From Chamaelirium japonicum (taxonomy: Eukaryota > Streptophyta > Magnoliopsida > Liliales > Melanthiaceae), in NCBI GenBank assembly GCA_947650365.1, contig OX393549.1:82042819-82106818 (forward strand): a DNA stretch of 64,000 nucleotides, given 5' to 3'. The notes beneath the pieces are model-generated. The model had not been told where the DNA came from and searched no databases. It saw only the letters and a program-made list of their open reading frames with translations. The position numbers were made by a program, and so were the translations under genes. Numbering within the stretch: position 1 is the stretch's first letter; every line of letters starts with the position of its first letter. Shown piece after piece: positions 1-55,776 of the stretch.

Positions 1-227
1 TGGTTGGGGTGTCCCATCACTTTCTAAAAATTAGATTGCAAAAAGCAAACATGTGATGTGAAAAATACTTAAACCCATCTCCCTCCCCTCTCTACGAGGT
101 ACAGATCGACAACTAATATAACCAGTCCAAAGATGCACCGACAGTCGAGCAATATCCAGAGTCCAAAGATATCCCATTCTTTGAATTAAAAACCAAAATA
201 TTTGTGAGTTCCTTAGGAGAAACATAC

Positions 228-11069: not shown

Positions 11070-11120
11070 ACCCGACCCCGGCGAGTACCTCCGGCAGGCG
11101 CCGAGCGCCGACACAGCATG

Positions 11121-11132
11121 AAACCCTAACCC
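11121..11132 (-). promoter_or_regulatory. Telo-box-like motif in the BAT2-N gene 5' leader
   Basis: AAACCCTAACCC on the plus strand lies about 50 bp upstream of the start codon at 11069, and a second AACCCTA occurs near 11227. Telo-boxes (AAACCCTA) are known to be common near the transcription starts of broadly expressed plant genes. A role here is inferred. Confidence 0.4.
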
Positions 11133-11524
11133 TTGATCTCTTAACACCGCGCTTGATCTTCTCTTTTATCTCCTTCGCCCCCTCCTCTAATCTATAGTCT
11201 ACGCGAGAAAAGCGATTGGGAAACAAAACCCTAGAGACCCTTTCTCGAATTGAGGAGCTTACGTCGCTGTCGGCGGGCGCTGTCTCGCGGTGGTCGGGGA
11301 GGTTACCGCCGCCGCCGAAGGGGCGGAAACTGGCCGCTCCTCGAAATGAATGAGACGAAGGGTGGGAAGAGAGAGAGAGAGGGGAGGCGGTCGAAAATGG
11401 CGTTATTAGGGTGGAAGTTCACACTGAAAGTAAAGAATAGAATTTGACCCTCTTGTTTGAGAGTGAGACCATACAAACTATGTAACAGAAGAGAAAGGTT
11501 AAAATTCTCCAAACAAAATAAACT

Positions 11525-25500: not shown

Positions 25501-26483
25501 AGGATTATCTCCCCATCACCCAGTTTTCTTGTCTCCTTGAACCCCTGCAAATTATTGCAAGCATGGTTAGTGGAACCAGAATCCATAATCCATGATACTA
25601 GAGAACAACTGGATGCTACAAGGGATTCCACTATATAGATTTGAGATATACCTGTCTCAGCCTTCTTGGGAGCCATGCGGCAGTCGCCCTTCCAATGCCT
25701 CTTCTTGCCTCATCGGAAACATTTTTCTTTGGGCTTCGCTGGACCATTCTGCTTCGGAACCTGCAACTGCACTTGGCCCATCTTCACGGGCTTCTTAGAC
25801 TTTTTTTTCTGAAACTTGCCTTTGGCTTTCAGAGAAAAATTCCGCTCCACGTTTAGGGATTGGGCTCCTGCCTTCATCCCGTCCTCTGCCGCCTGGAGCA
25901 CCGCTAGGAGCTCTGTATTAGACATCTCTAACCGGTTAAGATTGAAGTTGGTAACGAAGCCGTCAAACGCTCCTGACAGAGACGTGAGGAAAATATCGGT
26001 CTGGATCTCTGCATCCAAGATGACATCGAAGGAACCAAGCTCGTTCACATAGCCAAACAACCTCAGCATATGATCCCGAACTAAAGTCCCCTCTGCCATC
26101 TTCGTGGACATCAATTTCTTGATGGTCAGGTAACGAGTTACCCGACTACGACCCTCGAACATTTCCTTCAGGTAGAGCATCATGTCTAAAGCAAAGGCCA
26201 TATCTTCGACTTGCTTCTGAAGGACGGTCTGCAAGGATGCCACAATGTAGCACTTGCACATCTCATCAGCATCTAGCCAGTCTTTCCATTCCTTTAACTG
26301 GGCCTCAGTTGCACTTGGTCTCGGCATAGCCGGTTGAGGGGTACTTAGGGTAATTGTGTGTTTGCCAACCCTTAGGATGAGCATTAGGTTACGCTTCCAG
26401 TCCTCGTAGTTTAGTCCCGTAAGTTTGTTATCATTAAGTATGGAGGCAAGGGGGTCGAGCTTGGTCATGATTTCTGTAAACAA
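22514..26483 (-). pseudogene. Copia gag-pol polyprotein, broken
   Basis: Gag starts near 26483 (MTKLDPLASIL) and ends in a CCHC knuckle interrupted by a TGA at 25707-25709, where a Cys codon is expected. Protease shows WIMDSGSTNHAC. Integrase has HLRLGH...CESC, then HTDVCGP, FTDDHSRFGY and GVSERRNRT, the zinc and D-D-E regions. RT shows WQMDVKTAFLNGDL and YVDDILL. RNase H shows YTDSDFASD, EAEYVAA, YCDNSGA and the KHIERKYYIIRD end. Further breaks are TGA for Trp near 25160, a one-base gain in an A-run near 24435, and stops near 24037, 23939 and 23149. All parts lie in the Copia order protease-integrase-RT-RNase H. Confidence 0.9.
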
Positions 26484-28404
26484 TGGTTTAAAGCAATAGT
26501 TAGGGTCTACAACAATCTATTTCATAGAATTTAGATATAGATAATGTCTACTCCAGCCTCTATGTCTTCACCACCTCAAGTAGAGACATCCAGGAATCTA
26601 AATTCCCTGGGCTCGAGCACTGAGACTATCGGCCCTGAATTGGAGACAGCATCTCGGTGAGAGTATGCAACCGCTTCTGCCAACGAGGTTTTTACGACCC
26701 AGTCTTCATCAGAATTACCCACGGCAAACTGAAAGACCTCCCAGTCTCCTTTTGGCCAGCTTTATGTAACCCGCGTGCGCAGCAACAGCGGCTTCACACA
26801 AGCTTTCGGATGATTCCCACAAATCTAGGTGGTATCGGCAGGGGGGTTCATAGGCTCTCGCGGTGCAGGATAAAACCGTCACCCACTGCCACCGGCATCC
26901 TCCATGTCCCGAAGGAAACCACTAGGCGAACCAGCATGAAAGGAAACACAGCTCTCACCCGATGGGAATATCGAACTGCGTACCTCCCACCCAGACCCTT
27001 AGCCGGTTGATTGTGGAGGCCAGGGGCTCCCCTTTGGAGGGAACCTCTTACACATCCCTTCTTTATGAGGTTTTATGCATATCTAGAAAGGTCACGACCT
27101 TCTAGACTTAGACCCTGGTCTACCGTGCTCCCACTAGGATTATAAACCTTTCCGCAAAGCATTAGTATCCTCGGAAAATATCATAGTCCCTACTTTGAAT
27201 ACTCAGCTTTCGCCTTTCTTGCAATGATCACATTACATAGATTACAAGGATCCCGATACTTCACTAGTTTGTCCATAATCCTAAGATCTGGAGCCTAGCC
27301 TAAGGTCAACGTGGAAAGGACTCCCACTACGATGACGCCTCGTTCATAATTTGATGCCTGATATCATAGTAGACCTCATCTCATTACAGGTTTCGATGCT
27401 GGCCAAATAGGGACATCCGACAACCTCCGCCGGACCTGAACCTAATGGTGGCATAACCAAATCGTGATGAGTTCATACTACCATCAAACGTCATCTAGAA
27501 ATGGGTATCACACAGTGAAATCCTAACCTAACTTGGTCGCTAGGACCACGTGGGGAAAGGGCATCCCACTAGGGTTATCATACTTCTTATGGAGATATTA
27601 GTTAATTATCACTAAACAAATCTAACACTGCGTCTATCTCGGTGCACAGTACTTGGCTACCTGAACTACCACGAGGGCGGTTACCACCCTTCCTTTTAGC
27701 TAGCCACCGGATTCGCACGTGTTAGAAGCATATAGAGACACCGATGAATCCATAATTTTAGTACTAACCCTAAGCCTTATCTAGAGACAAACTCACAAGC
27801 AAGATAATCATATTATCATCGGGGTTCTCTAAATACTGAATAAAGAGAAACAACAGAAAAACATCCAAACTGAATCAAGTCCAGGGTCCGACCCCTGAAC
27901 CTGAATAGCACAGCCAAGATATCATGCTCTTCTGTTCTGCACGATCTCTGACGACGATCCTCTTTATCGCCAACGTGCACGCTTTCGCTGGGTCTTTGCA
28001 CGCCATGGTACCGCTTACCCGAACCGTGGATGTAGCATCATCTCCTTCTTCCTGTGACCGAAAAACTAACACGCTCCGAGCAAGTACTCGTTCGTGTATA
28101 ATTTCGCTAGAAAGAAAATAAGACAATCCTAGAAACATGGTCAGGGAACCGAGGATGGTCAACCCCCACCCTCGCTCATCTAGAGCCTTACAATCTACAA
28201 TAATAATCAATGCAAAATAAAATCCGGGGTCCAACCCCCGGATGCATGCAATCACATATTACTATTCAGCGCGGCACCTGCAAAAAGATGATACATAGCA
28301 CAATCCATATGCATGATCTACGCCGAACCCCAACGAAAACATATGCCATCATATATTCACATGATGTTTTCACGAATTCATGCATGAAATATACACCAAA
28401 GCGT
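26484..28404 (-). other. Copia untranslated leader
   Basis: About 1.9 kb between the primer-binding site and gag has no long open frame. It is the 5' leader of the Copia transcript. An unusually long leader is seen in several plant Copia lineages; no function is assigned. Confidence 0.6.
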
Positions 28405-36024: not shown

Positions 36025-38549
36025 CTATTCAGATTTAGCTTGGGCTTCACCTAACCCAACAGAATTACTCCTTGTATGTCTACCCGATCTTGTAACTATT
36101 GTAGACTTCCCCCTGCCACGTTTAGTCGAGTGATCAGCTTCAACAGTAAGTGGGTTAGGATGATTGCTGAAGACGTCAGGAATTTGAACCGTAGTTCCTT
36201 CCCCTCTACTTACTATCATCCCCTGATTACCCGTCCTAGCTTCTATCGGAACGCTGCCTACTTGCTCTGAAAACTCCTCTTGGAGATCTCCGAAGACTCT
36301 GCCCATTACTTCATCTGAAGCCAAAGAACCGCTAGCCTCCATATATGCTGATCGGATAACTTGTTTAGCTCCAAAATTTGCTGCAAATAATGAACGATTA
36401 GCACTCCCTCGCTTCTCTAAACTAGGTATCTGCAGACCTTTGTGTTTAGCCATAACTACTGCCGAAGCTCTCCCCTTGATCTCTTCCGGTTTATCCTCCC
36501 CAATACTAATAGGTTCCTGCAGCTCCTGTACAGTACTAGCACCCTGCCCATTCGCAGAATTACCTTCTTTCTCCTGACCATTCCCAGCAGCAATCACATT
36601 GTCTTCACCGCCCCCTCTGGTTTGGTCCCTCACCTCAATCAGAGTATCACCTTCTATATCTGCCGAAAACTGATCAATGTCCTGGCTATTAAACGCCCAA
36701 AAAGGCTCAACTATCCGTTCAGTATGCTCCCGAAGGATATCAAAGGGATTAGACAACTCAGTACCCTCTAGTTCCTTACCTTTGCCTCGATCCTTCCTCA
36801 TAGCACCCCCCACTTGCTCCCAGCCTTGCTCAAGATCTGATGAAGTTGTTCCCTATTCCCCAGCTGAATTTACCACAGGATTATCAGGCCCTCTTGACCC
36901 CTTGGGAATAGGTCGTCACTGAAACCGGTTCCCCTGTTGAACATCCGACACTTGCCCTCTCCCTAGCTTCTTCTAATTCTCCCCAAACTTGGGATGTTTG
37001 TGACACATACCTTCAGAATGGTCGAAAGATCTACAAGCGCTATATCTCTTAGGAACCCAATCATACAAAACAGGTTGAATGGACAAAAGATTGCCTTTAT
37101 TATCCCGGGCTTCAACTACTTTAGGTAGGGAGTCCTCCACATTTATCTCCACACAAAACCGAGCATAACTTACCCGGGATTGTGCAGTGGTCGCTTGATC
37201 CATATACAATGGTACCCCAATGGTACTTCCCATTCGGCTAAGTATCTCTTCAGACCAAAGGTCAACCAATAGATTTGGAAAACGTACCCAAATTGGAACT
37301 TTGGTAATAAGATCTCGTTCACAATTCATACCTTTCACCCATTTTTTCAATACAAGGGGTCTGCCTTCAATATGCCAAGGACCTCCTTCCAAAGCTTTCA
37401 CATAATCCTCTTCAAGCCCAAACTTAAATAAGAACACTCCATTCTCCCTAGAGTACAGCTCCAGACTGCCAGCCGGCTTCCATTTCTGCATTAGTTGCGC
37501 CTTCAGATGCAAATAATACGGCCTTCTACCCAACACATACCCAACCAAAGCTAAATCCATTGTTTCTAATTTCTTTCCACTTCCTCTACAGGGCAAACTG
37601 CCACTTTTTTTGTCCCCATCAACGTCGGAGCAATATATCGAAGCACAGGACTTCTCGAGCTTTTAGGTGGCGCTCCTACCGAATTCCAAACAGATTTCAA
37701 CCCACCAGCCAATCCAGCATTTCCAACAGCAATAGAGTTGGGTCTCTGACTACAGCCCTCATTCCCTGAACCGGATTTGAAACCTGGATGAACTACCCCA
37801 CTTCCACCAATACCTCCAGAATGATCTCCCTCCAGCGCTGCCGGCCGACCCTCTCTCTGAACCCACCCTGAGGATTGTAAGATTGAGAATTCTTCAGGAC
37901 GATCTATAGCAAAAGATTTACCACCCTGCATCCTTTGTTTTACTCTGCTAGGACTCAGCTCTCCCAGACCTTCTGCCGAACACCTAGCGTGCAAAGGAGA
38001 TACATCACATTGATGACCCAATGCAGCCCTATTAATAAACTCCGCTATACTTGGAGCAGCTGGTGGTGAGTACGTCCGTAGGAGATTCGCATCAGGCTCT
38101 AGCTCTCCTTGTTCAACCCCCTTAATTGCCCCAACTAGCAGTGGGGATCCGCAATGGGAACTGGCCTCCCCTGTTTTAGCCTCCCCTATTTTAGAAAGCT
38201 CAGACCCAGCAGAGCAAGAATACAGCTCCCCCTCAACTGATTTGTTCCCCCCTAGATTGATCACCTTATCAACGCTCAGATTACCACCCTTCCCTGTAAA
38301 AGATCGATCATTCCCCACTAGCTCCAGCTCCTCCTGAGCTCCAGCTCTATCCGAAAATGGAGATAGATCACCTGTTGATCCTGCACCTTGATCATCAGCT
38401 ACCTTCCCTGCTTGCCCATCTAAAATCCCATTGAGATGAGGCTCGGTGGGGGGCTTCATCAGCACCCCCGAATGGGGATCCAAGATCGCCCAAGATTCTA
38501 GAGAGAGAAGCTCCGGGTCTAGGGTTTTGGGTTTAGGGTTTTTGAACAC
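36025..38549 (-). pseudogene. LINE ORF1 (DUF4283 and zinc-knuckle, gag-like), broken
   Basis: Three open pieces lie in order on the minus strand. 38549-37566 is a low-complexity N-terminal region starting MFKNPKPKTLDPELL. 37596-36973 is a DUF4283 domain (LVGYVLGRRPYYLHLKAQLM, then GPWHIEGRPLVLKKW and IWVRFPNLLVDLWSEE) ending in a knuckle-like CRSFDHSEGMC. 36813-36025 is a charged C-terminal tail. A frame change near 37580 and stops between 36970 and 36815 break it. It would bind LINE RNA in a working element. It ends 9 bp before the ORF2 start. Confidence 0.8.
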
Positions 38550-39204: not shown

Positions 39205-39804
39205 GGAGTATTTTTCCAAAGTAACCACCAAGTTTGTCGTATTGCTCAAACTAAGTACATAGCCCGAAAACGTTACTTTTTTTACCACCTACACGTGTCG
39301 ATTCAGTGGCACGAGTGTTTTATGACTTTTTCTGACCATTTTGCCCTTAACAGTAGTAAAAACATTGGTTGAATAATTTTACGTCGATAAAGAGGTTCCA
39401 TCGATGTTCCGGCGATGAAGAGGTTCTGGCAAGGTTCCGTCGATGAAGAGGTTCCGACGAGGTTGCGGCGATGAAGAAATTTCTGTGAGGTTCCAGTGAT
39501 AAAGAGATTTCGGCGAGGTTCTGGCAAGGTTCCGGCAGGGTTCTGAAGTGGTTCCGATGAAGTTCCGACGATGAAAAGGTTTCGGTGAGTTTCTAGCAAA
39601 ACGTAACGAAAACGTAAACAAAATGTAACCAAACGTAAAATTTATGTTTGAGACTCTACTGGTTTCACGAAAGAAAAAGTGATTCGCTACATTAAAATTA
39701 TTTTTGTCTCAAATTTTTTTGATGATTATAAAAGTAACATTTTTGGGATCTGTACTTAGTCTGAGCAATACGACAAAACTGGTGGTCAGTTTAGAAAAAA
39801 CCTC
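39205..39804. mobile_element. Second inverted-repeat element abutting the foldback MITE
   Basis: The left arm (from about 39205) with GACCACCA/AACCACCA and TTTGTCGTATTGCTC is repeated inverted near 39760-39804, giving about 60-bp arms. The interior (39370-39600) is built of degenerate GGTTCCG(A/G)CGATGAAGA repeats of roughly 18-40 bp. Flanking CTTTTTAAT and CATTTTAAT are similar but not identical, so a TSD is only suggested. No transposase. Confidence 0.6.
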
Positions 39805-39839
39805 CATTTTAATATTGTACTTGGTTACCAAATATAATT

Positions 39840-39921
39840 GAGGTTTTTACCGAAATGGCCACCAACTCTCAACTATTGTTGAGAATGGACCCCGTCAAAA
39901 AATCTGCACGAAAATGGCCAC
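39840..39921 (+). repeat. MULE left terminal inverted repeat
   Basis: Eighty-two bases identical to the reverse complement of 45998-46079. It contains an internal palindrome, CTCAACTATTGTTGAG. Confidence 0.95.
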
Positions 39922-40119
39922 TGAAAATTCTTTGGGACCTAACTACCCTTTTACTTTACTACTAAAACCCTAGCTCCCATTGAGTCGCCCTTCACTTCCC
40001 TCATTTGGACGGCAGCTTCCTCCACCTCTTTCGACGGCAACTGAGAGACGGACACCTATTTCAATGGCGATCATCAAATCCCGTGAGTCTTCCTTCACTT
40101 CACCCCCTTTCGACGGCTC

Positions 40120-40752
40120 CTACACTTCACCCCCTTTCAACGACTCCTATACTTCACCTCCATCCTTTGCGATTTTTTTCATATATGTTTGATTAACTTC
40201 TTCATTGTACCATTTGATTACTTTTGATTTCATTAACAACAACAACCAATCGAGAAAAAGGAATGAAATCAACAAAAAGTAGTTGAATATTAACAGCATA
40301 TTTTAGGACGAAAGATGGACGAAAGATGGACGAAAAATGAACGAAATTGATAAAATTGGCTATTCATCATTATGGTTAGGACGAAAAAGGGATGAAATCG
40401 ACAAAATTAGCTGAATTTATATTATATTGGTCGTGATGAGTCCTACACTTCACCCCCTTTCAACGACTCCTATACTTCACCTCCATGCTTTGTGATTTTT
40501 TTCATATATGTTTGATTAACTTCTTCATTGTATTTGATTACTTTATGATTTCATTAACAACAATAACCAATCGAGAAAAATGAACGAAATCAATAAAAAG
40601 TAGTTGAATATTAACAGCACATTTTAGGACGAAATATGGACGAAAAATGAACGAAATTAATAAAATTGGCTATTCATCATTATGGTTAGGACGAAAAAGG
40701 GATGAAATCGACAAAATTAGCTGAATTTATATTATATTGGTCGTGATGAGTC
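40120..40752. repeat. About 320-bp tandem duplication in the MULE left region
   Basis: The block at about 40120-40440 is repeated at about 40441-40752. Shared landmarks in order are TACACTTCACCCCCTTTCAA, CATATATGTTTGATTAACTT, CAACCAATCGAGAAAAA-like, GGACGAAA motifs and TATTGGTCGTGATGAGTC. The first copy has an extra GGACGAAAGAT unit. Both are rich in GACGAAA and GATGAAA, the motif that also dominates the right-hand array. Confidence 0.85.
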
Positions 40753-40982
40753 TAGTATGTATTGGTCGTGATAAGTCTAGTATGTATTGGATACGTATGA
40801 TTAATTTTTGGTATCAAATTTGGTATTGTTGAGTTTTGATATTGTGGTTCTATGCTTAAAATAGTAACATTACATTGTAGGATGAAAAAGTGATGAAATC
40901 GATAAAATGATTCATATTTGATATCAAATTTTATATTGCTGAGTTTTGATATTGTGATTCTATGCTAACAGGGATTTGAAAT

Positions 40983-43820
40983 ATGGATTCAACATTACCG
41001 ATACTTTGTTGTTACGATGGAGAATTGTTATATTTGAAAGAAAAATACGAGTACAGGGGTGGAAGAACTAAAAGTATCATTTTATCTACAAAATCGGATT
41101 TTGACTGTCTTCTTCAGGAAATTTATAAGATTACAAATGATAGTCTCAAAGAGTATGAAATCACAATGAAGGTTTTATATCCAAGTACACTTGCATGTCC
41201 TCCTGCCGAAATTGTGGATGATAATGATGTTGCAGTATTTATTGCCCATAACATCCGAGCCAATAATAGCAATGTCCCATTGCTGATAAGCAGAGTGCTG
41301 AAAAATCCGAGATCTATTGACAGGTCGATTGAAATCGAACAACTCGGTAGTAAGAGAAAGTTGAAAGAAACGACACAGGTGTCTCGTAAAATACCTTGTG
41401 TAGTTACCCCTCCCGTTGACTTAAAAAATATCTCGACGTCATCGGAGCTTCATTGTTCGATATCGTCATCATTCGGTGTTGGAGATTTGCATACGGATGA
41501 AAAGATTGATATTAATTATGGCGAGGATTTCAGTTTTGTACCATGCACACTAGATGTCAGTCAACGTATTGAGTACAAGAGTGTGGAGAAACCTGAAGAC
41601 AACCCTCTATTATTTGACATTGTTATGAATGACAGAAGGTATGAATAATTTTTTCAAATATCTTATATTGTAATTCTGATGATTAATTAGTTTATGTACT
41701 TATATGTTTTTAAATAATATATGCCCAGTAAGGTGAATATAGATGACGATCAGCAGGGATCAAGAAGAGATACAAAATTATCTATAGATCTTAACCAGAA
41801 GCCTGCTGGTTATCATGTATTGGAGGAATTATTCATTGACACTCCTGCGGATATGGTAGTATCTCCAAAGCACACTCAACAGAATAGTCAGCTAAAGGAT
41901 AAGGATATTATCTGTAAGCAAGAAGGAAGTAAGACTGAAAAACAAAGAAGTAAGAAAGAAGTACCACTGAGACATAGCCAGAAAGAGTGTTTTGCCAGCA
42001 GTAGTTGGATGGAAAACGATGAACGTAAGTCTTCAATACCTGATTCGGTTTTGGTTTATGAAGACAAATACGTACCTAACGAATTCCCTATTGCTGTTGA
42101 AGTAAAAGATGATTATCAACAACTTTATCCTAATCAGATGTTTATAGATAAAGACACATTGATCAAGATGGTACAGAAGAATGCTTTATTTACAAACACT
42201 GAGTACAAGGTGATGAAGTCCAGCAGAACAAGATATGCATTAAAATGTAAAAGAGAAAATTGCAGTTGGAGATTACGTGCAAGTAGACAAAAAGGGTGTG
42301 ATGTTTTCAAAATTACTTTCCTAGGCCTACACAACTGCTCATTGCCGCAGCGTGGAATTGATCATCGATAAGCTACAAGCAAGTTGATATGTGATTTTGT
42401 GAAAGCTCGAATAGAAGCACATGTATTGTACTCTCCCAAAGCAATTATATGTGATGTGCAACAAGAATTTGGTGTGCAGATCACTTATCGAAAAGCATGG
42501 CTGGCAAGGGAGATGGCAATTGCTCTTTTAAGAGGCTCATACGAGGACTCGTATGTAATTCTTCCAGCATGTTGTCATGAAGTTGCACAAAATAATCCTG
42601 GAACCATCACTAATATTTTAAGGAAAGGAGACAGATTTAAGGCTGTTTTTATGGCTCTTGGTCCATGTTTACGTAGTTTTCAAAGACAAAATCTAAGACC
42701 AGTAATAGCCGTTGACGGATCTCATTTAAAAGGCAAGTACAAAAGTACTTTATTTATTGCAACCACTTTGGATGGAGATAATCATATATTTCCCGTAGCT
42801 ATTGGGATTGGTGAATCGGAGAACAATGAAAGTTGGAATTGGTTCTTAACACAACTGCGGGACAGCTTGGGTCAAGTTAATGATTTGGTTATTATATCCG
42901 ACCGACACAAGGCTTTATTGGCTCAAGTTCCTATTGTCTTTCCGGATGCTGTACATGGTTATTGTGCGTTCCATATTTCGCAAAACATGTATGCCAAATT
43001 CAAACAACAAAGATTATACTCTTATTTTTATACAGCTGCAAAGGCAACAAGAGAATCAAAGTTTCATCAAGTGATGGAAACTATAAAGCACATGAATGAA
43101 GATGCACATGACTGGTTACGAGAAATTGAGCCAGCAAAATGGACTACAGCGTATTTCACACGCAGAAGGTATAATATTATAACCACAAATAGTTCTGAAA
43201 GTTACAATAGTGTCCTAAAAGATATCAGAGAACTACTCATCACTATGATTTTGGAGCAATATCGGTTAAAACTCCAACTTTTATGATTCAAACGAAGAAA
43301 TACGGCAACAACTTTGACAACAAAACTAACAAAATGGGCAGAAAATCAGCTAGCCGGAGATATGGATAGAGCTCGTGGCACAGCGTGTCATCCTATTAAT
43401 CTCGATGAGTATATGGTCAGATCTATACAATATTGTGATCATGTAGTTTTAAGCAATCGAAAATGCACATGCCGTAAATTTGATGTGATGGCCATGCCAT
43501 GTTCACATGCATTAGCCGGAATTGCACAGTATAAGATGGATCCTTATCTATTTTGTGCACACTACTATACAGCGGATAACTACAGGGCAACCTATGCAGA
43601 ATCTATATATCCAGTTGCTGATAAAAGTGAGTGGAAGACCCCAGAAAGTATTCAATCAGCTAATAAACTAATCCCACCCATTGGAAAAAAAACAGCGGGA
43701 AGGCCAAAGAAAAAAAGAATTCTCTCACAGGGTGAGGAACGCCGGACTGTCAAATGTGCTAGATGTAAACGTTCTGGACATAATAAAAAATCATGTAACT
43801 TTCCTATTATTACAGAGTAA
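40983..43820 (+). pseudogene. MULE transposase (MuDR-type), two in-frame stops
   Basis: Coding exons 40983-41638 and 41729-43820 join in phase over a 90-bp GT-AG intron and give about 915 codons. The N-terminus resembles the PB1-like domain of plant MULEs (ILCCYDGELLY). A MuDR-type DNA-binding region follows (MFIDKDTLIKMV to LHNCSL). The DDE core shows RPVIAVDGSHLKGKY, LVIISDRHKAL, the CAFHISQNM motif and TTNSSESYNSV. A SWIM zinc finger (CTCRKFDVMAMPCSHAL) and a C-terminal CCHC knuckle (CARCKRSGHNKKSC) complete it. TAA at 42369-42371 and TGA at 43284-43286 (at a usual Trp) break an otherwise intact frame. The frame is open after each stop, so the damage is recent. Confidence 0.9.
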
Positions 43821-43825
43821 AGGTA

Positions 43826-44428
43826 TCATGTTTTTTTACTTGCATCATCTGGAACTGCAGTTGCTATGATTGAAGCCATTAAGGAGGCCTGAGTAGCCCC
43901 GCGTGGAAAGTATCTGCTTCTCAAGTTGTCTGACCCTATCTCTAGCATCGGAGGAGGAGGCCCAAGACCAAACCGGAGTCCAGAAACTAAAGAAAACTCC
44001 AACGGAGATAAGGAAATAGTCTGGCCATCCAAATCAAACTTCAGACCACCTAAGTGTCTTTGCCACAAATAATGAATGACACTTGGGAAAATCATAGCTC
44101 GTGCACCGCGTCTCCAATCAAATAAGAAACCAAAACAACTCCTTTTCATCCTATCCATCATATCTGTAGAATTGGTTTTTGTATCCATTGCCTTGAAGTG
44201 CTCCTCAATTTCATTAAGGTATTTAATGTTGTTCCTTGCAGAAGCTTTACCAAAATACCTTAATCTTTCACTTAGCTCCGTGCCCACTTTATTTTCTTCA
44301 ACATTCTCTCCCTCTTCTATCTTTCTTTTCTTTTTCTTTACTTCAATAGGTTGTGTAATTATAGAAGAAGCAGGGTTCCTATCACCACTTCCACGAGAAC
44401 GCCCACGACCACGGTGTCTCTTCACCAT
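43826..44428 (-). CDS. DUF1985-like protein fragment carried by the MULE
   Basis: A 200-residue frame on the strand opposite to the transposase, ending 6 bp from the transposase stop. The start is placed at the Met at 44428 (MVKRHRGRGRSRG), preceded by TTTACAG, so it could also be an exon start. It has a basic N-terminus with KKKKRK, then a segment with SCFGFLFDW, VIHYLWQRHLGGLKF and SLSPLEFSLVSGLRFG, resembling the DUF1985 domain often fused to Ulp1-like SUMO proteases in Kaonashi-type plant MULEs. No Cys protease domain follows before the stop, so it is truncated or only the first exon. Function unknown. Confidence 0.6.
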   Translation of the reverse strand: MVKRHRGRGRSRGSGDRNPASSIITQPIEVKKKKRKIEEGENVEENKVGTELSERLRYFGKASARNNIKYLNEIEEHFKAMDTKTNSTDMMDRMKRSCFGFLFDWRRGARAMIFPSVIHYLWQRHLGGLKFDLDGQTISLSPLEFSLVSGLRFGLGPPPPMLEIGSDNLRSRYFPRGATQASLMASIIATAVPDDASKKT

Positions 44429-44629
44429 CTGTAAACAAAATATATATATGATGAAAATTTGGATGATATGTGGACGAAACAATACATAAAATATGGACGA
44501 AACTACTATTAGTTATTCTCCAAATACGAAAATACTGTAAGCTTTGTTTGAAGAGAATTGATCTCTCAGTTTCTAGATTGAACAAAATATCCTTCCATTA
44601 GTCCATGGATACAGATAAAGAATTTGTCA

Positions 44630-45560
44630 ACTGACTGTGACTTTTCGGCAACGAAACATAGCCGAAATTTATAATTTCGTCCAATTTTCGTCCAACTTTC
44701 GTCACACAGCTCAATGCAAGTCTCGGGCAGAACTGTCAGAACTGACTGTGATTTTTCGGCGACGAAAACTAGATGAAATTTGTTATTTCGTCCGATTTTC
44801 GTCACACAGGCCATAGCCAGTCACGGCCAGAACTGACTGTGTTTTTTCGGCGACGAAAACTAGACGAAATTTGTTATTTTGTCCGATTTTCATCAAACAG
44901 ACCATAGCTAGTCTCTGCCAGAACTGACTGTGCTTTTTCGGCGACGAAAACTAGACGAAATTTGTTATTTCGTCCGATTTTCGTCAAACAGACCATAGCC
45001 AGTCTCTGCCAGAACTGACTGTGCTTTTTCGGCGACGAAAACTAGACGAAATTTGTTATTTCGTCCGATTTTCGTCAAAACAGACCATAGTCAGTCTCTA
45101 CCAGAACTGACTGTGCTTTTTCGGCGACGAAAACTAGACGAAATTTGTTATTTCGTCCGATTTTCGTCAAAACAGACCATAGCCAGTCTCTGCCAGAACT
45201 GACTGTGATTTTTCGGCGACGAAAACTAGACGAAATTTGTTATTTCGTCCGATTTTCGTCAAACAGACCACAGCCAGTCTCTGCCAGAACTGACTGTGAT
45301 TTTTTGGCGACGAAAACTAGACGAAAATTATTATTTCGTCCGATTTTCGTCACACAGGCCATAGCCAGTCTCGGCCAGAACTGACTGTGATTTATCGGCG
45401 ACGAAAACTAGACGAAATTTGTTATTTCGTCCGGTTTTCGTCACACAGGCCATAGCCAGTCTCTGCCAGAACTGACTGTAATTTACGGCGACGAAAACTA
45501 GACGAAAGTTGTTATTTCGTCTAATTTTCGTCTCACAGTTTAAAGCCAGTCCCTGGCAGA
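44630..45560. repeat. 91-bp tandem repeat array in the MULE right region
   Basis: About ten units, with the shared ACTGACTGTG string at 44741, 44832, 44923, 45014, 45106, 45198, 45289, 45380 and 45471 (period 91-92). Each unit contains GACGAAAACTAGACGAAAT followed by its inverse ATTTCGTCCGATTTTCGTC, so each can form a hairpin. The array lies upstream of the DUF1985-like frame and inside the right TIR. Confidence 0.93.
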
Positions 45561-45997
45561 AATATAGGGCTAAGGATTTGGGTCTATAGAGCATACCTTG
45601 GCAAATCCGACGAAGCCTGAAAGACGAAGCCTCAGCGACGAAGCCTCAACGACGAAGCCTCAGCGACTGTTGACGTTGACGCCGGTCCGACGAACCCTCG
45701 ACGACGGTTGATCGTGACAAACCCTCGACGATGAACCCTCGAAGATGAACCCTCGACGACGCAGCCTCGGCGAAACCAAGTTACCCAGCCACGACGACGC
45801 AGCCGGTTGAGTTGGAGGTTGTCGGACGCAGCCTCGACGAAGGTTGTTCGTGACGAAAACAAGACGAAAGGCTCGATTTTCTCTCAAAACTCGTAAGAAA
45901 CCAAGTTACCCAGCCGAGATAGGTTTTTACAGTGGTAAGGGTCAATATGTCTTTTTACCTGTTTAGTGTCATCGTGCGACCTGTTTCCCACGTGCTG
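45561..45997. other. MULE right subterminal region with CGACGAAGCCTC-like repeats
   Basis: Between the array and the TIR are many short (A/G)CGACGAAGCCTC and CCTCGACGATG units at irregular spacing, and ACCAAGTTACCCAGCC occurs twice (about 45775 and 45899). Open frames through it follow from the repeats and are not supported as genes. Confidence 0.55.
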
Positions 45998-46079
45998 GTG
46001 GCCATTTTCGTGCAGATTTTTTGACGGGGTCCATTCTCAACAATAGTTGAGAGTTGGTGGCCATTTCGGTAAAAACCTC
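45998..46079 (-). repeat. MULE right terminal inverted repeat
   Basis: Perfect inverse of the left TIR, followed directly by the TSD AATATAATT at 46080-46088. Confidence 0.95.
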
Positions 46080-46305
46080 AATATAATTCGAACATGACGA
46101 CGTGCCGCAGCAGGCATGGCCCACTGCCTTTGACCACCAAGTTCGTAATAATGGCCAAATCTAGGTGCTGGAGATCCCCAGATCCAATCTCCTCCTCCCG
46201 TTTCACTAGCCATCCACCAGCCCCCCCACTGAGCAACTCCGAGCTCAGCCGTCAGTCCATGCCGGAATCCTCGTCGCCGGCCGCCTGAGAGGGAGGAAGG
46301 AGCCG

Positions 46306-49300
46306 ATGGACATGAAGCGGATCAGGAGGCCGCAACCGTCTCCGACCCCGCACCCCGATCCCGAGGACGACCGCGGCGCCTCTCGACCCGCGGCCGCCGA
46401 GAGGCGGCCCGGCACCAGGATGCTCCGGCTTGCTCTGGTCCTCGTCGCCGGCTTGGTGGCCCTGCCCCTCCTGGTGGTCCTCGTGTCGGGGGCCCACCGG
46501 AGCCCCACCGTCCTGGAAAAGGAAGTGCGATCAGGAGAGGGTAACCTCCCTCCGTTCTTTTCTTTTCCTTTCGAGTTCCTAATTTGATTCTAAACACAAA
46601 ATGTCTGAATTTCTCTCCTAGCTCATAGTCATTTTAGTTGGATTTGTGTGAACAATCGTTATATTTTTGTCTGAACACATTTCCTGATTTTACTGTACCA
46701 ACACAAGATCTAGATCTGTTTATAGACTTCAAAACACATTTAAGTTAGTAATTAGAAAGGAGATGACTAAGGAGGGAAGCAAGGTAGAGTTTGGCCTATA
46801 GAGATTGTAATATTCTTTAGGGCCGATTTGGATAGCCGAAAATCCTACATGTGTGTACCTTGATGGCCTTACCGGAGAGTGGTCGTCAACCTTGTCGCGG
46901 GCCGGTCGCGCACTTCGTCTCAGGCCGGCCACGAGCTTCACATCCCGTGGAGGCATGCAGCCCACGAAGGAACCGGGGACGTCAATCTCGTCACGGGTCG
47001 ACCGTGCACGAGGAAGAGAAGGGGGGGGACTGTCCCTCCTTTTCAATGGAGGTCGGTCGTGCACGAGGAAGAGAAGGGGGGGACAGCCCCTCCTTTTCGA
47101 TAAAGGTCGGCCGCGCACGAGGAACAGAAGGGGAAACTGCCCCTCCTTTTCGCTGGAGGTCGACCGCGCACGAGAAAGAGAGGGAGGGACTATCCCTTCT
47201 TTTCGATGAAGGTCGGCCGCGCACGAGGAAGAAAAGGGAAGGACTGCCCCTCCTTTTCGATGGAGGTCGGCCGTGCACGAGGAAGAGAAGGGGGGGGACT
47301 GCCCCTCCTTTCCGATGGAGATCAACTGCACACGAGGAAGAGAAGGGGGGACTGCCCCTCTTTTTTGATGGAGGTCGGCCGCGCATGAAGAAGCGGCCTT
47401 AGAGCACCGAATTTTCCGCAAAGGGTTGACCCAAAAATCACTCCCCCAGATCACGCAACGGTTAAACCTGAGAAATTCGGTTGACCGATAAGGCAGGAAA
47501 CGACCCGAGCCGTAATTACCAGGTGCCAGTTGCGCGATACGTCACCTCCACACAGACAGTTGAGCACATTGCGGGAGCGCGTCACCAACGTCGTCCCGCA
47601 CGGAACGCTCTAACTGTCATCCTCAGACACTATGAAAGGAGACCTACCCCTTAGAGAAAAGGATCGAATTCTGGAGGAGGTGCTGCCCAATTCTTTTCGG
47701 ATTTTTCGGAGTTAGAGTGAAATTGAGATTACAGAGGTCTGTATTTTGGGAGACCGGTCCTCTCAGGGTGTAACTGGGTCAGGGTGAGAGATTGTAATCA
47801 GTTTATTGTATTTAGTACATTCTCGCCACGCCCCGTGGTTTTTTCCCCTTCGACGTTGAGAATGAGCTTTTCCACGTAAACCCGGTCCTCTTTGTTCTTT
47901 GGTTTGTTAGATTGTGCATTCCAAATGAACCGCCCAGTCCAAGAAAACCCCCCCACACTACACTATCCTGTAATGAGGCCGTGTTTGGTAGACGAAAATT
48001 TTCATTAAAAGAAAGGAAAGTCTAACCCCTTCTGAGGGAATATACTTTACACTCGAGAGTGAGAGGAAAGAGAAATCCCTCACTTTTCGTCCGATTACAC
48101 TAACATGGGGGTAATTTAGGTATAGAATAATTCGAATTTCTGATTACTTTTCCGGCCACCAAACACGTCCAACATCACTTAAGGGAGGGAATCCCCTCCC
48201 TTTCCCGTCACTTTCCGGCTACCAAACGCGGTAGGATTTGAGGTTAATAAACCCTTCCCAAACATTTATATCCTAACCTAGTGGTGTTTCGATTGCTAAA
48301 GCTTGCTTTCTATAGGTTTGAAATTACTAATATTTCTATTCCTTCAATTCTTTCTCATGATAGAATCATTGCCCCTCATTTGCTTTCTCGCCCAAGTTAG
48401 GACCTTTGAAAACTGCACTTCTCTACCCTTCTGCTTCTTGCACATGCATGTTTTATTTTGTTTTCCTCTATCTTTCTTCGTTCCCTTTACCTATATATAT
48501 TTTCGGGTTGTTTTTTTAGTTCTTTGTAATGCCAAGTACGCTTGTCTTGAGCTTTCAAACAAAAATCTACATCCTTATAGGCAGATTTAGCATTTTAAGT
48601 TAAAAGCTTGAATCTATAATGTTTCTAGAGATTTCTAAGATTTTCCATTGGTCTTCTCAAAAAGTGCATATATTTTGGTATTCATCTAGCTAAATATTTG
48701 GGTATACCTATTGCAATTTAGACGTGCTCACTAACAACCTCTAACCTCTGTTACCTAAAACTTTAATTTTTTTAATAAGTCATGATTAAAATGCGACTTA
48801 TTTGGTAAATGTGTGCTATGTGACTATTTCCCGAATTTTTTAAAAAGTCACGATTTTATAAAAAAAAAATCATTTTCGTGTTTTATTCTTGATTTACATG
48901 TTTTAATACAAATTGATCGTGTTTTAATCCCGTTATATATAAATATATAACATCTATATATTTATGCTCAAAAACCCTGTTGGAACATCTATTTATAAAT
49001 ATATTGTATATATGTCTACTGTTTGTTTCCTAATTTTCTTAACTTTTTTTTCAATTTTTCCGACTTCTTTCCGAGCCCATTTTTTCCCGATTTCTAACTT
49101 GGTAACTATGCTTGAGAGTTGAGACCCACATTAAAGCAAAATTATCATGTTGAATCCTAGTTTTGTGTCTTCTTTCATTGTTTGGTTTTTTTGTTTGACC
49201 ATAATTCCTCGTAACCAAGATGTCGTCTTTCTTGATGATCAACCGTCTTCGACTAGTTCTCTAAGCTCTTGGGGACTATACAAGCATTTCCTAAAGCTGA

Positions 49301-52300
49301 GCTGTTCCTTTAGTCCATAAGTCCATTATCCCTATCATCTTATCTTGTCGGCAATCTTCATGTCCTGTGATTTTTCCCTTTGAATTCTAAGTGTTTCCTT
49401 TGGCTTATTCAGGTAAGAGCAAGCTCTTCTTTGCGACCATTGTGTCCCATTCTTTCATCAACATTTATCGCATAATGCTTGTCCTATTGATGTCTCATGG
49501 CCGCATCTAATATTGGTTTGATTGTGGTATGTTTTTGTGGAGTAAACAGTCCCATCATATTTTTTCTTTCTTTTGTCTTCTTTACTTTGAGCTGATCTGT
49601 GTCACATCTTTGAATTGTCTCGTGTTGTCGATCCATTTATCCTTATGATTTGACTTGTTGGACTAGGCCTTTGCAACGGTGTGGCCTTTATTTTCATCCT
49701 TCATTTCCTTCATTGAGTCCTTTGTTGTAACTTCTTTCTTCATTCAAAATGATGCTTTATGAATCCGCTTAACCACAGTCTTGCACTACATCTTAAACCA
49801 TTTGCACCCACAAAAAATTCTACGTATTAGCATGCTCTCACATCATCTCCTCATGCAGTGCTTTTTACTGAAATTTTTATATAGGTCTCTTTGTCTCTGC
49901 AAAGCGTACGGTGTACAACTCTAATTATGATATTGCGATACAGAAGCACTGTCAATTGTGCAAACACCTGGTGCTCAATCTAATCGGGTGTAAGGTAGAA
50001 GCATTCAAGGCTTCATCCAGACATCCCAAAAATGGCGAAAATAACACGTAATAGTTTTTATGTGGAAACCCAAACAGAAAAACCATGATACTTTCTTACA
50101 GGTCAAGGCAATCCACAATGGAGCTCTGTTGTTACACATGCTCTCAAGCATCTACTCTTCAGAATACTCGGTGCTCCCATAGTCGAACTCACCAAGATTG
50201 TTGTCTTTGTCTCACAGTCCGCCACCTATCCAGATGTTCTCTCCTGTAACCTTGTGCCAACCGCTTCCAGTAACGACGGACTCTTCAACGCCACTTCTAT
50301 ACGTAAAATCTCTCAACTAAAGGAATGACAACTTCAATTGACCAAACTCGGACACACCATTGAGTCAGGACCACGAGCTTTTGAACGGTTCCTAGGCTTG
50401 TCTCGAAGTGACATTTTCTGACGAGATAGATTCAAAGAGACAGTTCTCTTGATGAACCCAACTTTGGTCACTGACAATATTCCCCCAAATCAATCAAAGA
50501 AAGATAAAATACATGGAGAGGAAGGGATTTCAAGACCAATAGATAGGAGGGATTGGGGCAATCTAATCTCTCGTGCACACCAACCCAAAACCCTAAATGA
50601 AATCGAATAAAAAATCTACATAGAGGGAAGGAGAAACTTGCCCAATTTGGGGGTTTTTCTCTCCAAGAGCTCTTGAGTCTTGGCTGCAAAAGAGGTTGTA
50701 GAATTTTCACCCTAATGAGCTAACATAGTGCACATTTATATAGGGTGAACATCTCCTATAGGCGTCCATTGTATCTGGCCACCAATGACTGAGGTTAACC
50801 CAACTAAAGGGAGAAATTGGGTTGTTGGAATCACAACCCCGACATGGTTCAAATAGTTCTTCGGAATGCACCCTTGAGCGGTCCGGATGGTTGTCCGACA
50901 TGTTGCATGTCTTTAACGGTCCAGCCGACCTTCTAGACCACCTATGGGATCCTGCCCTTAACTTTCAAACAACTAAGAAAGGTTTGGACCAAGGTTTAGC
51001 TGTCCAGACGATTGTTCGGACCACCTTGGGCACCCTGTCTTTAACTCCGATCGAGTCCGATAAAATCCAATAAACTCGTAAAATATTAAATAACAATAAA
51101 ATAGGGTTTTTGATATAAAAACATTATAAAATCAAATTGAACTCTAGAAAAACGTGAAACAATTGACAAAGAGAAATCACACGTAATTACTTGAGAGATT
51201 TGAAAAATCTCATTTTTCATATACTACCCAACTCACTGAACCAAATACTGTGGAGATGGCCAAGTCTGGTCTTTTGGTTTTTAAAATGCTACTATGCCCG
51301 ATAGGACATCTTCAACAACTGTAGCGCATGGTCGCTACCTAGAATTACAGGATATTACACAACTTCATCGAATTTGCAAGCAAAATTAATGCCAATAAAG
51401 ATGTACGCTTTACAACGGTTACAATTGCGTATGACTGGAATCACTTGCCTGCATCATTGTATCATTGCTCGAAGCAAGTATTAATAGCTTGCAATGGACT
51501 CTGAAAGGCAACCTATTTTCTTGTTAATTTCATCAGCCAACTGATCTTCTTGTTATGTCACATCATTAGCTCTCTCAATTTGTTGAGGCCGTTGTTCCAG
51601 CAGTTGGCTTGTTAGGATGTAGCTCAAGGCTTATCACGGTGTATTGAATGAACTCCGTTTATTGCCCATTTATCCCACTGCTTGTAGTTAACATGTTGAT
51701 CCATGCTTACCCTTTCAACTTCTATTAATTTTGCTTGGTGTTTTCTTAGCTCACCATAGTCTTGATTCGCACTAGATATTGGTGCATCCTTGTGGCATTT
51801 TTAATCTATTCCAACTCTTTCCACCGGGCAGTGTCGCAATGAACACTTTTTCCGCAATGCTGGCAGAAAGTACATTCGAGCTGAAGCCTCCGTGCTAGAA
51901 GTGAGAACTCACAACACTTCTGACCTTCTTTGACTAGGATGACATCATGCACGGTTTGTTTCCTCCCTTCTTATGAAGATTTCAAAAGGGTGACAAATCT
52001 GAACTATATTTCTAGAAACAAAGCTTCTGCTTCATTAGTTTTTAGTTTTACATGTGGTTCCTCTTTCGATTGTTAAGGAACTGAACAACAATTGGGTATT
52101 TTGGTTCATCCTTGTGCTCATAACACTTCCTTCAAGATCCTGAGTTCTCGAGCAACATTTGGCTTATCCTGCAGATCTATCGCATTGAATACCCATTACA
52201 AGTACACTGGCTGCTATGATACCTCTTCTGCACTTCTTTCTTATCTAGATTTCTGATCAATGCTTTCTTCTGGAAAACTATTCGGGTATTGTCTACCTTA

Positions 52301-55300
52301 AATTCGGGGAGGGTGTTATTCCCAATACAGTGAATAATGAGATTGCTGTCAATATATATTCTTTATAGGTAATGAACTGCATGTATTAGTGTCCTGACAT
52401 GGTCATTAGGTGTAAGCCTTGTAGTATTTTGGCTTCATTCTGTAATATACTACATTCAAATTACTTACCTACATTCAGCCTTCCTCTTGTAGTTTTAACA
52501 CTCGTTGAGTCAAGTGATACATAATTCACTACCTTTTGCTCTAATACTAATTATTGATGTTATTCGTTGCTGATGTCGCCTTACCCATGATTTCTTTATT
52601 CACCTTGGTATATTAATATAGTTTTTATTTAATCGTTTCCTACTTTTATATTTCTGATTTTCAATCTACCAAATTCTTTCTCCTTGGGATATTAATATAT
52701 GATTTTTTTTTTCCAAATCTTTTCCTACGTTTATATTTCTGATTTTCAATCTACTGGTTTTTTTTTCTCAACTTTTATGATTTTATTGCATTATTTCTGA
52801 ATTTTACGTATCTTTACCTGAATGTATTTTCCGAAGATTTCTTTCCTTTTGCTAATTGAATTTTAGAAGTTACTCCGGTTCATTAAAATTAAGATTTAGA
52901 ATTGTCATACTGACCTGAAATAGATAGCCCATGCATGTCTTTTCTCGCTTTTCTGTAGAAATGCAATGTGTGTTACAATGTAAACATGCATAATTGTTTG
53001 CAGCTTTATGGTAGCATCGCAAAAAATGAAAATATATTTGATCCTTTGCTTCTGTCAGCTGCTCTCTGTCGACACAACTTTTTGTTTGAGAGGTTCTACA
53101 TTTAACTTGGTACCTCTATATTATGACATACACATATGAGAACATGTTGCCCAAAAAAGATATATTTTGGTTTTTTTTGACCTTGTCCTCAAGTTAATTG
53201 GTGTAAATAAAAAATACCCCCTTAGTCCTTAGTTTTCGAGTCTTACCGGGGGCATGGTAAAAAAAACCTTACATTTTATATGCTTTCAAGGAAGATTTTT
53301 GCATTTTAGTTTATGTTTGACCTACATTCTATAGAGGTTGATGCAATGCAGTTATGCATGTTTCTACATGGCAATTTGTCCTTGCGCATAATATTAAGTG
53401 GTACTTCTGTTCTCTAAATACAAGAGGCGAAGCATATATATTTATTTAAGGGGGACTTGGTGATCGGTCCCCGGAATAGATTCGGTGTTGCAATTTGGAC
53501 ATAAAGAGATCCCCTTTTACATCAGGTCCCTGCAATGATGCGTTTTCTTCCCAGCCACATATTTTGACTTTTTCTCCCCTTCAGATGACATCACTGCCCT
53601 TCAACTTAGATTCATCAAATTTACATTTCTTGCTATCTAGATGCATATCGACCATCGGATTTAATGTAAAAAGGGTATGGGTGCAATGCACCTATCGTTG
53701 CCGGGTGTAAAGTATTAGATCCGATTCATCTCGGCCGTTCCCTATTGTTAAAGAAGCATCTCGACCGTCGGACTTAATGTAAAGAGGGTATGGGTGTGAT
53801 GCACATGTCATGGCTGGGTATAAAGTACAGATCAGATGCATCTCGACCGTCAGATTGAATATAAAAAGGATATAGATGTGATGCATTTGTCGTGGTTGGG
53901 TGTAAAGTACAGATTGGATGCATCTCTACCGTTCTCTATTGTTACAGATGCATCTCGACCGTTGGATTGAATGTAAAAAGGGTATGGGTGCGATGTGTCT
54001 GTCGTGGATGGGCATAAAGTACATATCGGACAGTTCAGATGTGCTTGGAGCATCCACCGCCGGAGCATAAATCTTCCTGGGCGTCCCCCCCCAGGGGCTA
54101 GTGTTTGCAAGGCTAAATTAGTTACTTGGCATTTATTTTTATTAGGTGATAAACCGGCCAGGATTTGATTTAATGAATATCCAATCAGAGGGACTTGTTG
54201 GCTAGGAACCTAACACCCATTTCCCCTTTATTTGGATTTAATCATTTTGTTCAATGGTGTTGCTACACACGCTATCATGTGTAGTGTCCTCATGTGTGTG
54301 TAATTTTTAGGTCTGGAAGACGATTCTGTTGCATCCTCGAATGTACAGATCGACAAATTTCTAGGAGGCTTGCTGGCTTCTGGGTTTGATGAAGCCTCCT
54401 GTCTGAGCAGGTATCAGTCCGTTCTGTACCGCAAAGCGTCGTCCCGTGTCCCATCCCCATATCTACTGGAAAAACTACGGAAGCATGAAGTGCTCCATAG
54501 AAAATGTGGTCCAAACACTGATCTGTACAACAAAACCATCGATCAGCTGAAGTCTGGTCGTGGCACTGGGGCTACGGAGTGCAACTACTTGGTATGGATT
54601 TCATATAGCGGCTTAGGGAACAGGATGTTGTCTCTTGCTTCGGCATTTCTTTACGCTCTCCTTACAGACAGGGTCCTACTCGTCGACAGAGGTGCTGACA
54701 TGGCAGACCTCTTCTGCGAGCCATTTCCTGAGAGCTCGTGGTTATTGCCTTTGGATTTCCCCATCAACCAGTTCAGCAGCTTCGGGATCGAAACTCCCGA
54801 GAGTTACGGTAACATGTTGAAGAACAAGGTCATCACTAACAATGCTGATGGCGCTTCGATGGGGTTGCTGCCTGCTTACATCTACCTCCATCTAGCGCAT
54901 GACTATGGTGATTATGACAAACTCTTTTTCTGCGAAGAGGATCAGCGTCTCCTTCAGAAGATTCCTTGGTTGATTCTGAAAACAGACAACTACTTCGTGC
55001 CATCTCTCTTTCTGAGCCCAACATACGAGGAAGAACTGAGTCGGCTCTTCCCTGAAAAGGACACCGTCTTCCATCATCTAGGCCGTTATCTTCTCCACCC
55101 AACCAACACGGTGTGGGGTCTGATCACGAGGTACTATCAAGCTTATCTAGCGAAGGCTGGAGAACGGGTCGGCATTCAGATCAGGGTCTTCGATACAGGG
55201 GCCGGCCCCTTTCAGCACGTGTTGGATCAGATCCTTGCTTGTGCACTGAAGGAGCATCTGTTGCCTGATGTCAGCCTCCAAGAACCTGTCACCTCGACTA

Positions 55301-55776
55301 TAAATTCGAGATCGAAAGCTGTTCTTATGACTTCTCTGAACTCGGGATACTTTGAGAGGATCAGGAACATGTACTGGGAGCACCCGGCCGCCGGCGGGGA
55401 GGTTGTGAGCGTCTATCAGCCTAGCCACGAGGGGTACCAGCAGACGGAGAAGCAGATGCACAACATGAAGGCGTGGGCGGAGATGTATCTGCTGAGCTCG
55501 ACGGACGTTCTGGTCACGAGCTCGTGGTCGACGTTCGGGTACGTGGCGCAGGGCCTCGGCGGGCTGACGCCGTGGATACTGTTCAAGCCGGAGAATCAGA
55601 CGGCGCCCGACCCTCCCTGCCGCCGCGCCATTTCGATGGAGCCTTGTTTCCACGCTCCGCCGTTTTACGACTGCAGGGCAAAGAGGGGCGTCGACACGGG
55701 GGAGCTGGTCCCTCACGTGAGGCATTGCGAGGACATGAGCTGGGGCCTCAAGCTGGTGGACCGGGATGAGTGGTAG
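46306..55776 (+). CDS. Galactoside 2-alpha-L-fucosyltransferase-like (GT37, xyloglucan FUT family)
   Basis: Exon 1 (46306-46540, 78 codons plus one base) and exon 2 (54311-55776) join in phase across a GT-AG intron of 7770 bp, giving 566 residues, close to Arabidopsis FUT1 in size. Residues about 40-62 form a single membrane anchor after a basic, Pro-rich N-terminus, which fits a type II Golgi protein. Exon 2 carries the GT37 signatures: LVWISYSGLGNRMLSLASAF, DRGADMADLFCEPFP, the sugar-nucleotide motif GIQIRVFDTGAGPF (Arg near residue 370) and the Cys-rich end SMEPCFHAPPFYDCRAK. The likely reaction is transfer of fucose from GDP-fucose to galactose of cell-wall polysaccharides or arabinogalactan proteins; the exact acceptor is unknown. 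A MULE lies 226 bp upstream. Confidence 0.93.
46994..47392. repeat. Minisatellite, period 53-55 bp, about 7.5 copies
   Basis: GCACGAGGAAGAGAAGG-type starts are at 47006, 47061, 47115, 47168, 47221, 47275, 47330 and 47383. Each unit also has CCCCTCCTTTTCGATGGAGG-like sequence. Because the period varies around 54, open frames run through it on both strands, but there is no sign of translation. It lies in the fucosyltransferase intron. Confidence 0.92.
47971..48233. repeat. MITE with GTGTTTGGTAG ends in the fucosyltransferase intron
   Basis: Left GGCCGTGTTTGGTAGACGAAAA pairs with right CTTTCCGGCTACCAAACGCGG as inverted ends of about 22 bp. The interior is short (about 220 bp) and non-coding. 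TSD not resolved. Confidence 0.55.
48240..53640. other. Long AT-rich part of the fucosyltransferase intron
   Basis: No gene or clear element end is seen in 5.4 kb. Around 49.9-50.7 kb the text (TATGTGGAAACCC and similar) resembles degraded LTR sequence, but no matching partner was found. Much of the rest is T-rich on the plus strand. Confidence 0.45.
53640..54040. repeat. Minisatellite-like repeat, four degenerate units, just before exon 2
   Basis: GCATCTCGACCGTCGGA-like starts occur at 53643, 53756, 53838 and 53949, each followed by AATGTAAAAAGGGTATGGGT-like sequence and GTCGTGGTTGGGTGTAAAGT-like sequence. Spacing alternates near 112 and 82 bp because some units carry an extra CCGTTCCCTATTGTTA segment. 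It ends about 270 bp before exon 2. Confidence 0.8.

Follow-up and report, generated by a model that had tools for sequence, protein, structure and literature searches.

The window, meaning the whole 64-kb stretch of Chamaelirium japonicum DNA that was analysed, contains a MULE insertion of 6,240 bp (39840-46079, plus strand) that lies upstream of a fucosyltransferase (FUT) gene. The element is bounded by 82-bp terminal repeats (TIRs), one at 39840-39921 on the plus strand and an identical one at 45998-46079 on the minus strand. Both flanking 9-mers read AATATAATT (39831-39839 and 46080-46088), a target-site duplication with a 9/9 match whose right copy includes a TATAAT-like string. Read as inverted arms, 39837-39921 and 45998-46082 are complementary at 85/85 positions; these 85 bp comprise the 82-bp TIR and the last 3 bp inside the duplication. 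With the element set to 39840-46079, the TIR measures 82 bp and identity ends at base 83. The 30 bases that span the left duplication and the start of the element occur once in the 1.52-Gb genome, at this site. The boundary call is sound, and the perfect 82-bp TIRs and exact 9-bp duplication described in the first-pass annotation are borne out. Both agree with the long TIRs and 8-11 bp target duplications of MULEs. Among ten related elements with both ends read, the duplication is perfect (9/9) in six, one of these being AAAAAAAAA, and is 8/9 in one, 7/9 in one, imperfect in one and absent in one. The L017/L018 pair of ends was omitted from this count, as the two lie 36.8 kb apart with unlike flanks and are probably two elements.

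The element carries a mudrA-type transposase gene (40983-43820, plus strand) with one predicted intron at 41639-41728, the ends of which were read by eye. Its pieces match the Pfam MULE (E=1e-22), MuDR DBD (E=7e-9) and SWIM (E=1e-5) domains, and the MURA-type transposase domains expected of a MULE lie over the cut-off (PF10551, PF03108, PF04434, PF00872). Two in-frame stops, TAA at 42369-42371 and TGA at 43284-43286, deprive this copy of the uninterrupted transposase frame of an autonomous MULE. Each results from a change (C>T at 42369, G>A at 43286) that none of the nine aligned relatives shares. On the minus strand, 43843-44428 is a truncated 5′ part of a DUF1985/Ulp1-type (KIU/VANC-like) gene with its first ATG at 44428; a Pfam search of this shortened frame gave no match.

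The neighbouring gene is FUT1-like and belongs to family GT37. Its open frame (46306-55776, plus strand) encodes 566 aa in two predicted exons, 46306-46540 and 54311-55776, whose splice sites were read by eye. The protein has the two features of a GT37 fucosyltransferase: a complete XG_FTase domain in exon 2 (E=9e-219, profile positions 23-475 of 475) and an N-terminal hydrophobic anchor, seen as a strongly hydrophobic stretch at residues 40-60. The closest solved protein is the galactoside 2-alpha-L-fucosyltransferase 5koe (E=4e-220), which we take to be Arabidopsis FUT1. A start at 46306 is plausible from the sequence. A family search of the genome found at least one GT37 gene (one candidate, one scored), namely the FUT of the window; the same kind of search found at least four GT34 genes (six candidates). 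Within the 7.8-kb FUT intron (46541-54310), GC-rich units of 53-55 bp are repeated in tandem at about 46996-47404.

A deleted member of an 11.5-kb family

The genome contains relatives of the element. A search with the 82-bp TIR, in which the best 40 of 885 first-look candidates were scored, gave at least 42 matches, 40 at 100%, counting the window element's own two ends. Three complete relatives, C6, C5 and C2, are 11.45, 11.64 and 11.55 kb long. They align at 98.2-99.0% with bases 1-4003 of the window element and with most of 4004-6240; the middle is missing from the window copy. The junction lies at 43840-43842, where 5,313 bp of C2 are missing and a 3-bp TTG is common to both breakpoints. 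The lost sequence includes most of the minus-strand DUF1985/Ulp1-type gene. The 36-base junction occurs once in the genome with up to 3 mismatches allowed, and no sister copy with the same deletion was found in the genome at that threshold. The window copy is a unique internal-deletion derivative of the 11.5-kb elements that lacks ~5.3 kb, and the deletion could have come before or after the insertion. With its internal deletion and broken transposase, which the first-pass annotation had missed, and a shortened DUF1985/Ulp1-type gene, this copy could transpose only with proteins from another source.

Damage is not peculiar to the window copy, which differs overall by 1.0-1.8% from nine relatives. 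The older relatives are damaged too: C6 has frameshifts, C5 is interrupted by an early stop in its first exon and by a frameshift in its second, and C2 has a stop of its own. The relative a2 still has both transposase exons in open frame (222 and 700 codons). Its minus-strand gene encodes the DUF1985 domain (PF09331, E=1.5e-14) that characterizes VANC-type systems, together with an Ulp1-type Peptidase_C48 domain (E=2.5e-7); a similar Ulp1-type frame is present in C6 and C5, and this part is deleted from the window copy. The six elements of the a lineage (a1-a6, L044-L055; 11.5-12.0 kb) are 0.04-0.29% apart and form a very recently amplified MULE lineage. A search with DUF1985 gave an identical score of 357.1 bits, with no stops, in 26 of the 150 matches scored from 529 candidates.

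The C and a lineages differ unevenly along their length. On the transposase side, up to C2 position 4500, there are 0-1 differences per 500-site interval. From 9501 to 11500, a region that takes in the right array and the beginning of the DUF1985 gene, there are 11-18 per interval, which could reflect locally faster evolution or exchange with a further lineage. Compared with C2, the arrays of a1 and a4 are also enlarged by insertions of 364, 180 and about 90 bp. The differences that separate the two lineages are mixed, with 21/86 being C>T or G>A in the C-to-a direction, and such changes account for 30/40 of the single-copy changes among a1-a6.

Possible consequences for the fucosyltransferase gene

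The reading that we favour, at a probability of about 0.65, is that a non-autonomous, internally deleted MULE inserted into the 5′ flank of FUT, an intact FUT1-like gene, and that it affects FUT modestly or only under some conditions, without replacing the promoter. The ends, the duplication, the deletion, the two stop codons, the relatives and the open FUT frame are established from the sequence. The source is a young MULE family with TIRs and with genes for a transposase and a DUF1985/Ulp1-type protein, the window copy being a non-autonomous deleted form. Ordinary Mutator-type transposition with a 9-bp staggered cut would have placed the element in the FUT flank. Incomplete repair between short matches would explain the internal deletion, and any further movement would presumably require transposase from intact relatives. 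FUT most likely keeps its start signals in the leader that remains between the element and the gene, and its expression may be affected by, for instance, methylation of the MULE. We consider it less likely that the promoter was replaced than that it was retained. As a gene-proximal insertion, the locus is of an ordinary kind. It recalls the maize MuDR/Mu system, which has internal-deletion derivatives and is alike in its TIRs, its 9-bp duplication and the presence of a non-autonomous deletion copy near the 5′ end of a gene; the second gene of MuDR differs from that of the window family.

The layout of the insertion site bears directly on this reading. The first-pass annotation had placed the end of the MULE 226 bp upstream of the FUT start codon, and that distance is exact (46080-46305, including the duplication; 217 bp without it). 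The leader on the FUT side (46089-46305, plus strand) is GC-rich (61%) and contains ATGs at 46094, 46116, 46151 and 46259. The TATAAT string belongs to the duplicated target, and the copy beside FUT retains its old spacing. No second copy of the leader was found in the genome, so that comparison revealed no conserved promoter. Likewise, the leader and exon 1 together (46089-46545) are single in the assembly, in which neither an uninserted haplotype nor a paralogue was found as an empty site. Upstream, a dispersed 0.6-kb inverted-repeat element (39206-39806), with ends that are 83% complementary, is separated from the insertion site by ~30 bp. Its longer matches elsewhere are 73-83% alike (best 40 of 701 candidates scored). 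This repeat probably predates the MULE and, if it did come first, little unique promoter DNA would have been displaced by the insertion. A 27-nt similarity between 46133-46159 in the leader and 39224-39250 in the repeat might have been the relic of an old TIR, but this reading was dropped because nothing else in the genome matches the leader.

An unlikely alternative is that the MULE itself supplies the FUT promoter, with transcription running from in or near the right TIR into the gene. In its favour, the TIR end lies 226 bp from the FUT ATG, and an excerpt of PMC6446971 states that MULE TIRs hold transposase promoters. Among suppressible maize Mu alleles, a like case is the Mu1 allele a1-mum2, whose expression depends on whether the transposase is active, in the account given in an excerpt of PMC2563033. 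However, a transcript that started in the TIR would carry the four upstream ATGs, all of which are out of frame with FUT, and the first of which opens a 64-codon frame (46094-46288). The DUF1985-type gene at the right end also reads inward, away from FUT. Both points are compatible with outward transcription.

The opposite effect, in which the insertion lowers FUT expression by cutting off upstream control elements or by spreading methylation, is also improbable. One support comes from the substitution pattern of the window copy. Compared with C6, C5, C2 and a1, this copy carries 33 private substitutions in 5,946 sites (0.55%), of which 29 are C>T or G>A. Such changes are common in silenced transposons. 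By context, 3 of the 29 are in CG, 6 in CHG and 20 in CHH, and the corresponding sites in C2 number 698, 658 and 2,919. The C>T excess was therefore rejected as proof of methylation, since CG and CHG are not enriched relative to available sites. A loss of FUT would be visible, because the gene is the only GT37 member found in the genome search. Against a knock-down stand the dispersed repeat, which leaves only ~30 bp upstream of the site, and the open FUT frame, though recent silencing would leave the frame open too.

GACGAAA arrays and likeness to VANDAL elements

The main interest of the family lies elsewhere: this MULE lineage combines recent amplification, well-kept TIRs, a DUF1985/C48 gene and conserved motif arrays. 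The arrays are built on the heptamer GACGAAA, which occurs 47 times in the window element, both strands counted. The Markov expectation is a mean of 1.3, and none of 300 shuffles exceeded 7; the remaining 57.7 kb of the window contain 8 occurrences. Seven sites form a left subterminal cluster (40307-40696, plus strand), in a block of 0.3 kb that is non-coding and duplicated. The other 40 GACGAAA/TTTCGTC sites are in the right part of the element, which includes a 91-bp tandem-repeat array studded with them (44642-45575). The commonest spacing is 11 bp (22/46). All 47 sites lie outside both the transposase frame and the DUF1985 frame as read from its first ATG; one falls in the open stretch that precedes that ATG. 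Short-motif tandem arrays in non-coding DNA, as found in VANC-type systems, are thus present. They are also general in the family, as 18-48 sites were counted at each of 24/24 right ends, the window's included, with 19 of these 24 ends covered to 1,485 bases. Co-evolution of the VANC type would lead one to expect a different motif in each DUF1985 subfamily. No such divergence was found in four more distant loci (L062-L065), where GACGAAA is the commonest 7-mer in 4/4.

The pattern of change within the arrays suggests that the motif is maintained. Among array differences fixed between lineages, 3 fall in motif positions and 20 outside (p=0.07 alone). Changes in single C-lineage copies fall 18 in motif positions and 17 outside (p=0.02), an excess that could be explained by the CG within the motif. 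The contrast between fixed and single-copy changes (p=0.005) indicates that lineages retain GACGAAA while single copies lose it; this comparison draws on just three and six copies of a tandem region in which alignment is difficult, with motif positions defined from the same copies. In the window array, private substitutions of the C>T or G>A kind have removed at least two sites, 44877-44883 and 44888-44894.

Known elements offer close parallels to parts of this arrangement. Kaonashi of Arabidopsis and the ULP-MULEs of melon, rice and grapevine, all KIU/ULP-carrying MULEs, are alike in having mudrA and, downstream of it, an Ulp1-type gene that reads the opposite way. Unlike the window family with its 82-bp TIRs, the KI-MULEs of Arabidopsis are non-TIR elements, and the window copy itself is without the Ulp1 part. 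TIR-bearing MULEs with ULP genes have already been described: an excerpt of PMC2528002 reports ULP sequences in TIR and non-TIR MULEs of grapevine, in both orientations. For VANDALs carrying KIU, an excerpt of PMC13317346 describes recognition of motifs in elements of their own kind and a lowering of their methylation. The array layout of the window family matches that of VANC targets, as in VANDAL21, portrayed in excerpts of PMC5735166 and PMC10398659. The motifs differ, being YAGTATTAY for VANDAL21/VANC and GACGAAA, in both orientations with a commonest spacing of 11 bp, for the window family. Degenerated TIRs are described for VANDALs in the excerpt of PMC10398659; VANDALs usually, but not universally, have absent or degenerate TIRs, and the perfect 82-bp TIRs of the window copy depart from this. 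TIRs are nevertheless known in some members of the clade, certain Brassicaceae elements according to the excerpt of PMC6446971.

By analogy, then, the DUF1985/C48 gene and the dense non-coding GACGAAA arrays resemble the layout of a VANC anti-silencing VANDAL, here with well-kept TIRs. A more specific proposal is that these MULEs have a VANC-like anti-silencing function and have retained their TIRs. The DUF1985/C48 protein of intact copies would bind the 11-bp-phased arrays, and the array that remains in the window copy, its right edge ~0.73 kb from the FUT start codon, would tie both methylation and expression of FUT, the sole GT37 gene found, to activity of the family elsewhere in the genome. 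We regard this as quite speculative. If the arrays do act like VANC targets, the family would add another example of such a system without degenerate TIRs, and the FUT site would offer a natural setting in which to test whether a transposon family controls a single gene in trans. No description of a TIR-bearing family with DUF1985 and phased motif arrays was found among the open-licence papers listed.

Age of the insertion and other features of the window

The first-pass annotation had taken the perfect TIRs and the exact duplication to show a young insertion. Youth is upheld, on the separate ground of the 0.55% private change, from which the insertion appears fairly young; the TIR argument fails, as pair identity does not follow age in this family. 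The private change bounds the time since the split from C6, C5, C2 and a1 at ~0.4 million years with 1.3e-8 substitutions per site per year. This is the rice rate, and slower-evolving plants would give a greater age. Part of the change may also predate the insertion. Left and right TIRs match at 82/82 within the window copy, C6, C5 and C2 (4/4 of the older lineage), whereas they match at 81/82 in 6/6 elements of the a lineage, the youngest. TIR identity was accordingly rejected as an insertion clock. Indeed, a perfect TIR pair gives no date for a DNA transposon, because the two repeats are not copied from one another at insertion. At 0.55%, ~0.9 changes are expected in the 164 TIR bases, so that observing none is unremarkable. 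The left TIRs of the nine relatives are identical to the window's, which is no test of the clock, as these relatives were chosen through exact TIR matches. Among the 24 loci from the DUF1985 search, the five that contain the right TIR differ from the window's at 0, 1, 3, 3 and 5 of 82 bases, which gives no demonstration of special constraint on the TIR; the other 19 end short of it.

That the insertion is instead old, with ends perfect by chance or kept so by constraint or conversion, would fit the failure of TIR identity to track age in this MULE family, but is very doubtful given the 0.55% private divergence, the mere 4 differences in 798 bases of the non-array right part that separate it from the two nearest of 19 other loci in the DUF1985 search and, as weak evidence, the 9/9 duplication.

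Elsewhere in the window, no RNA families were found at gathering score in the 38-57 kb region. A DUF4283 frame (36976-37662, minus strand, E=3e-34), a zf-RVT domain (16896-17675), a copia-type gag (25713-26516) and integrase domains (24378-25160) are retroelement remains. A 1,736-codon open frame also runs along the minus strand at 5955-11165.
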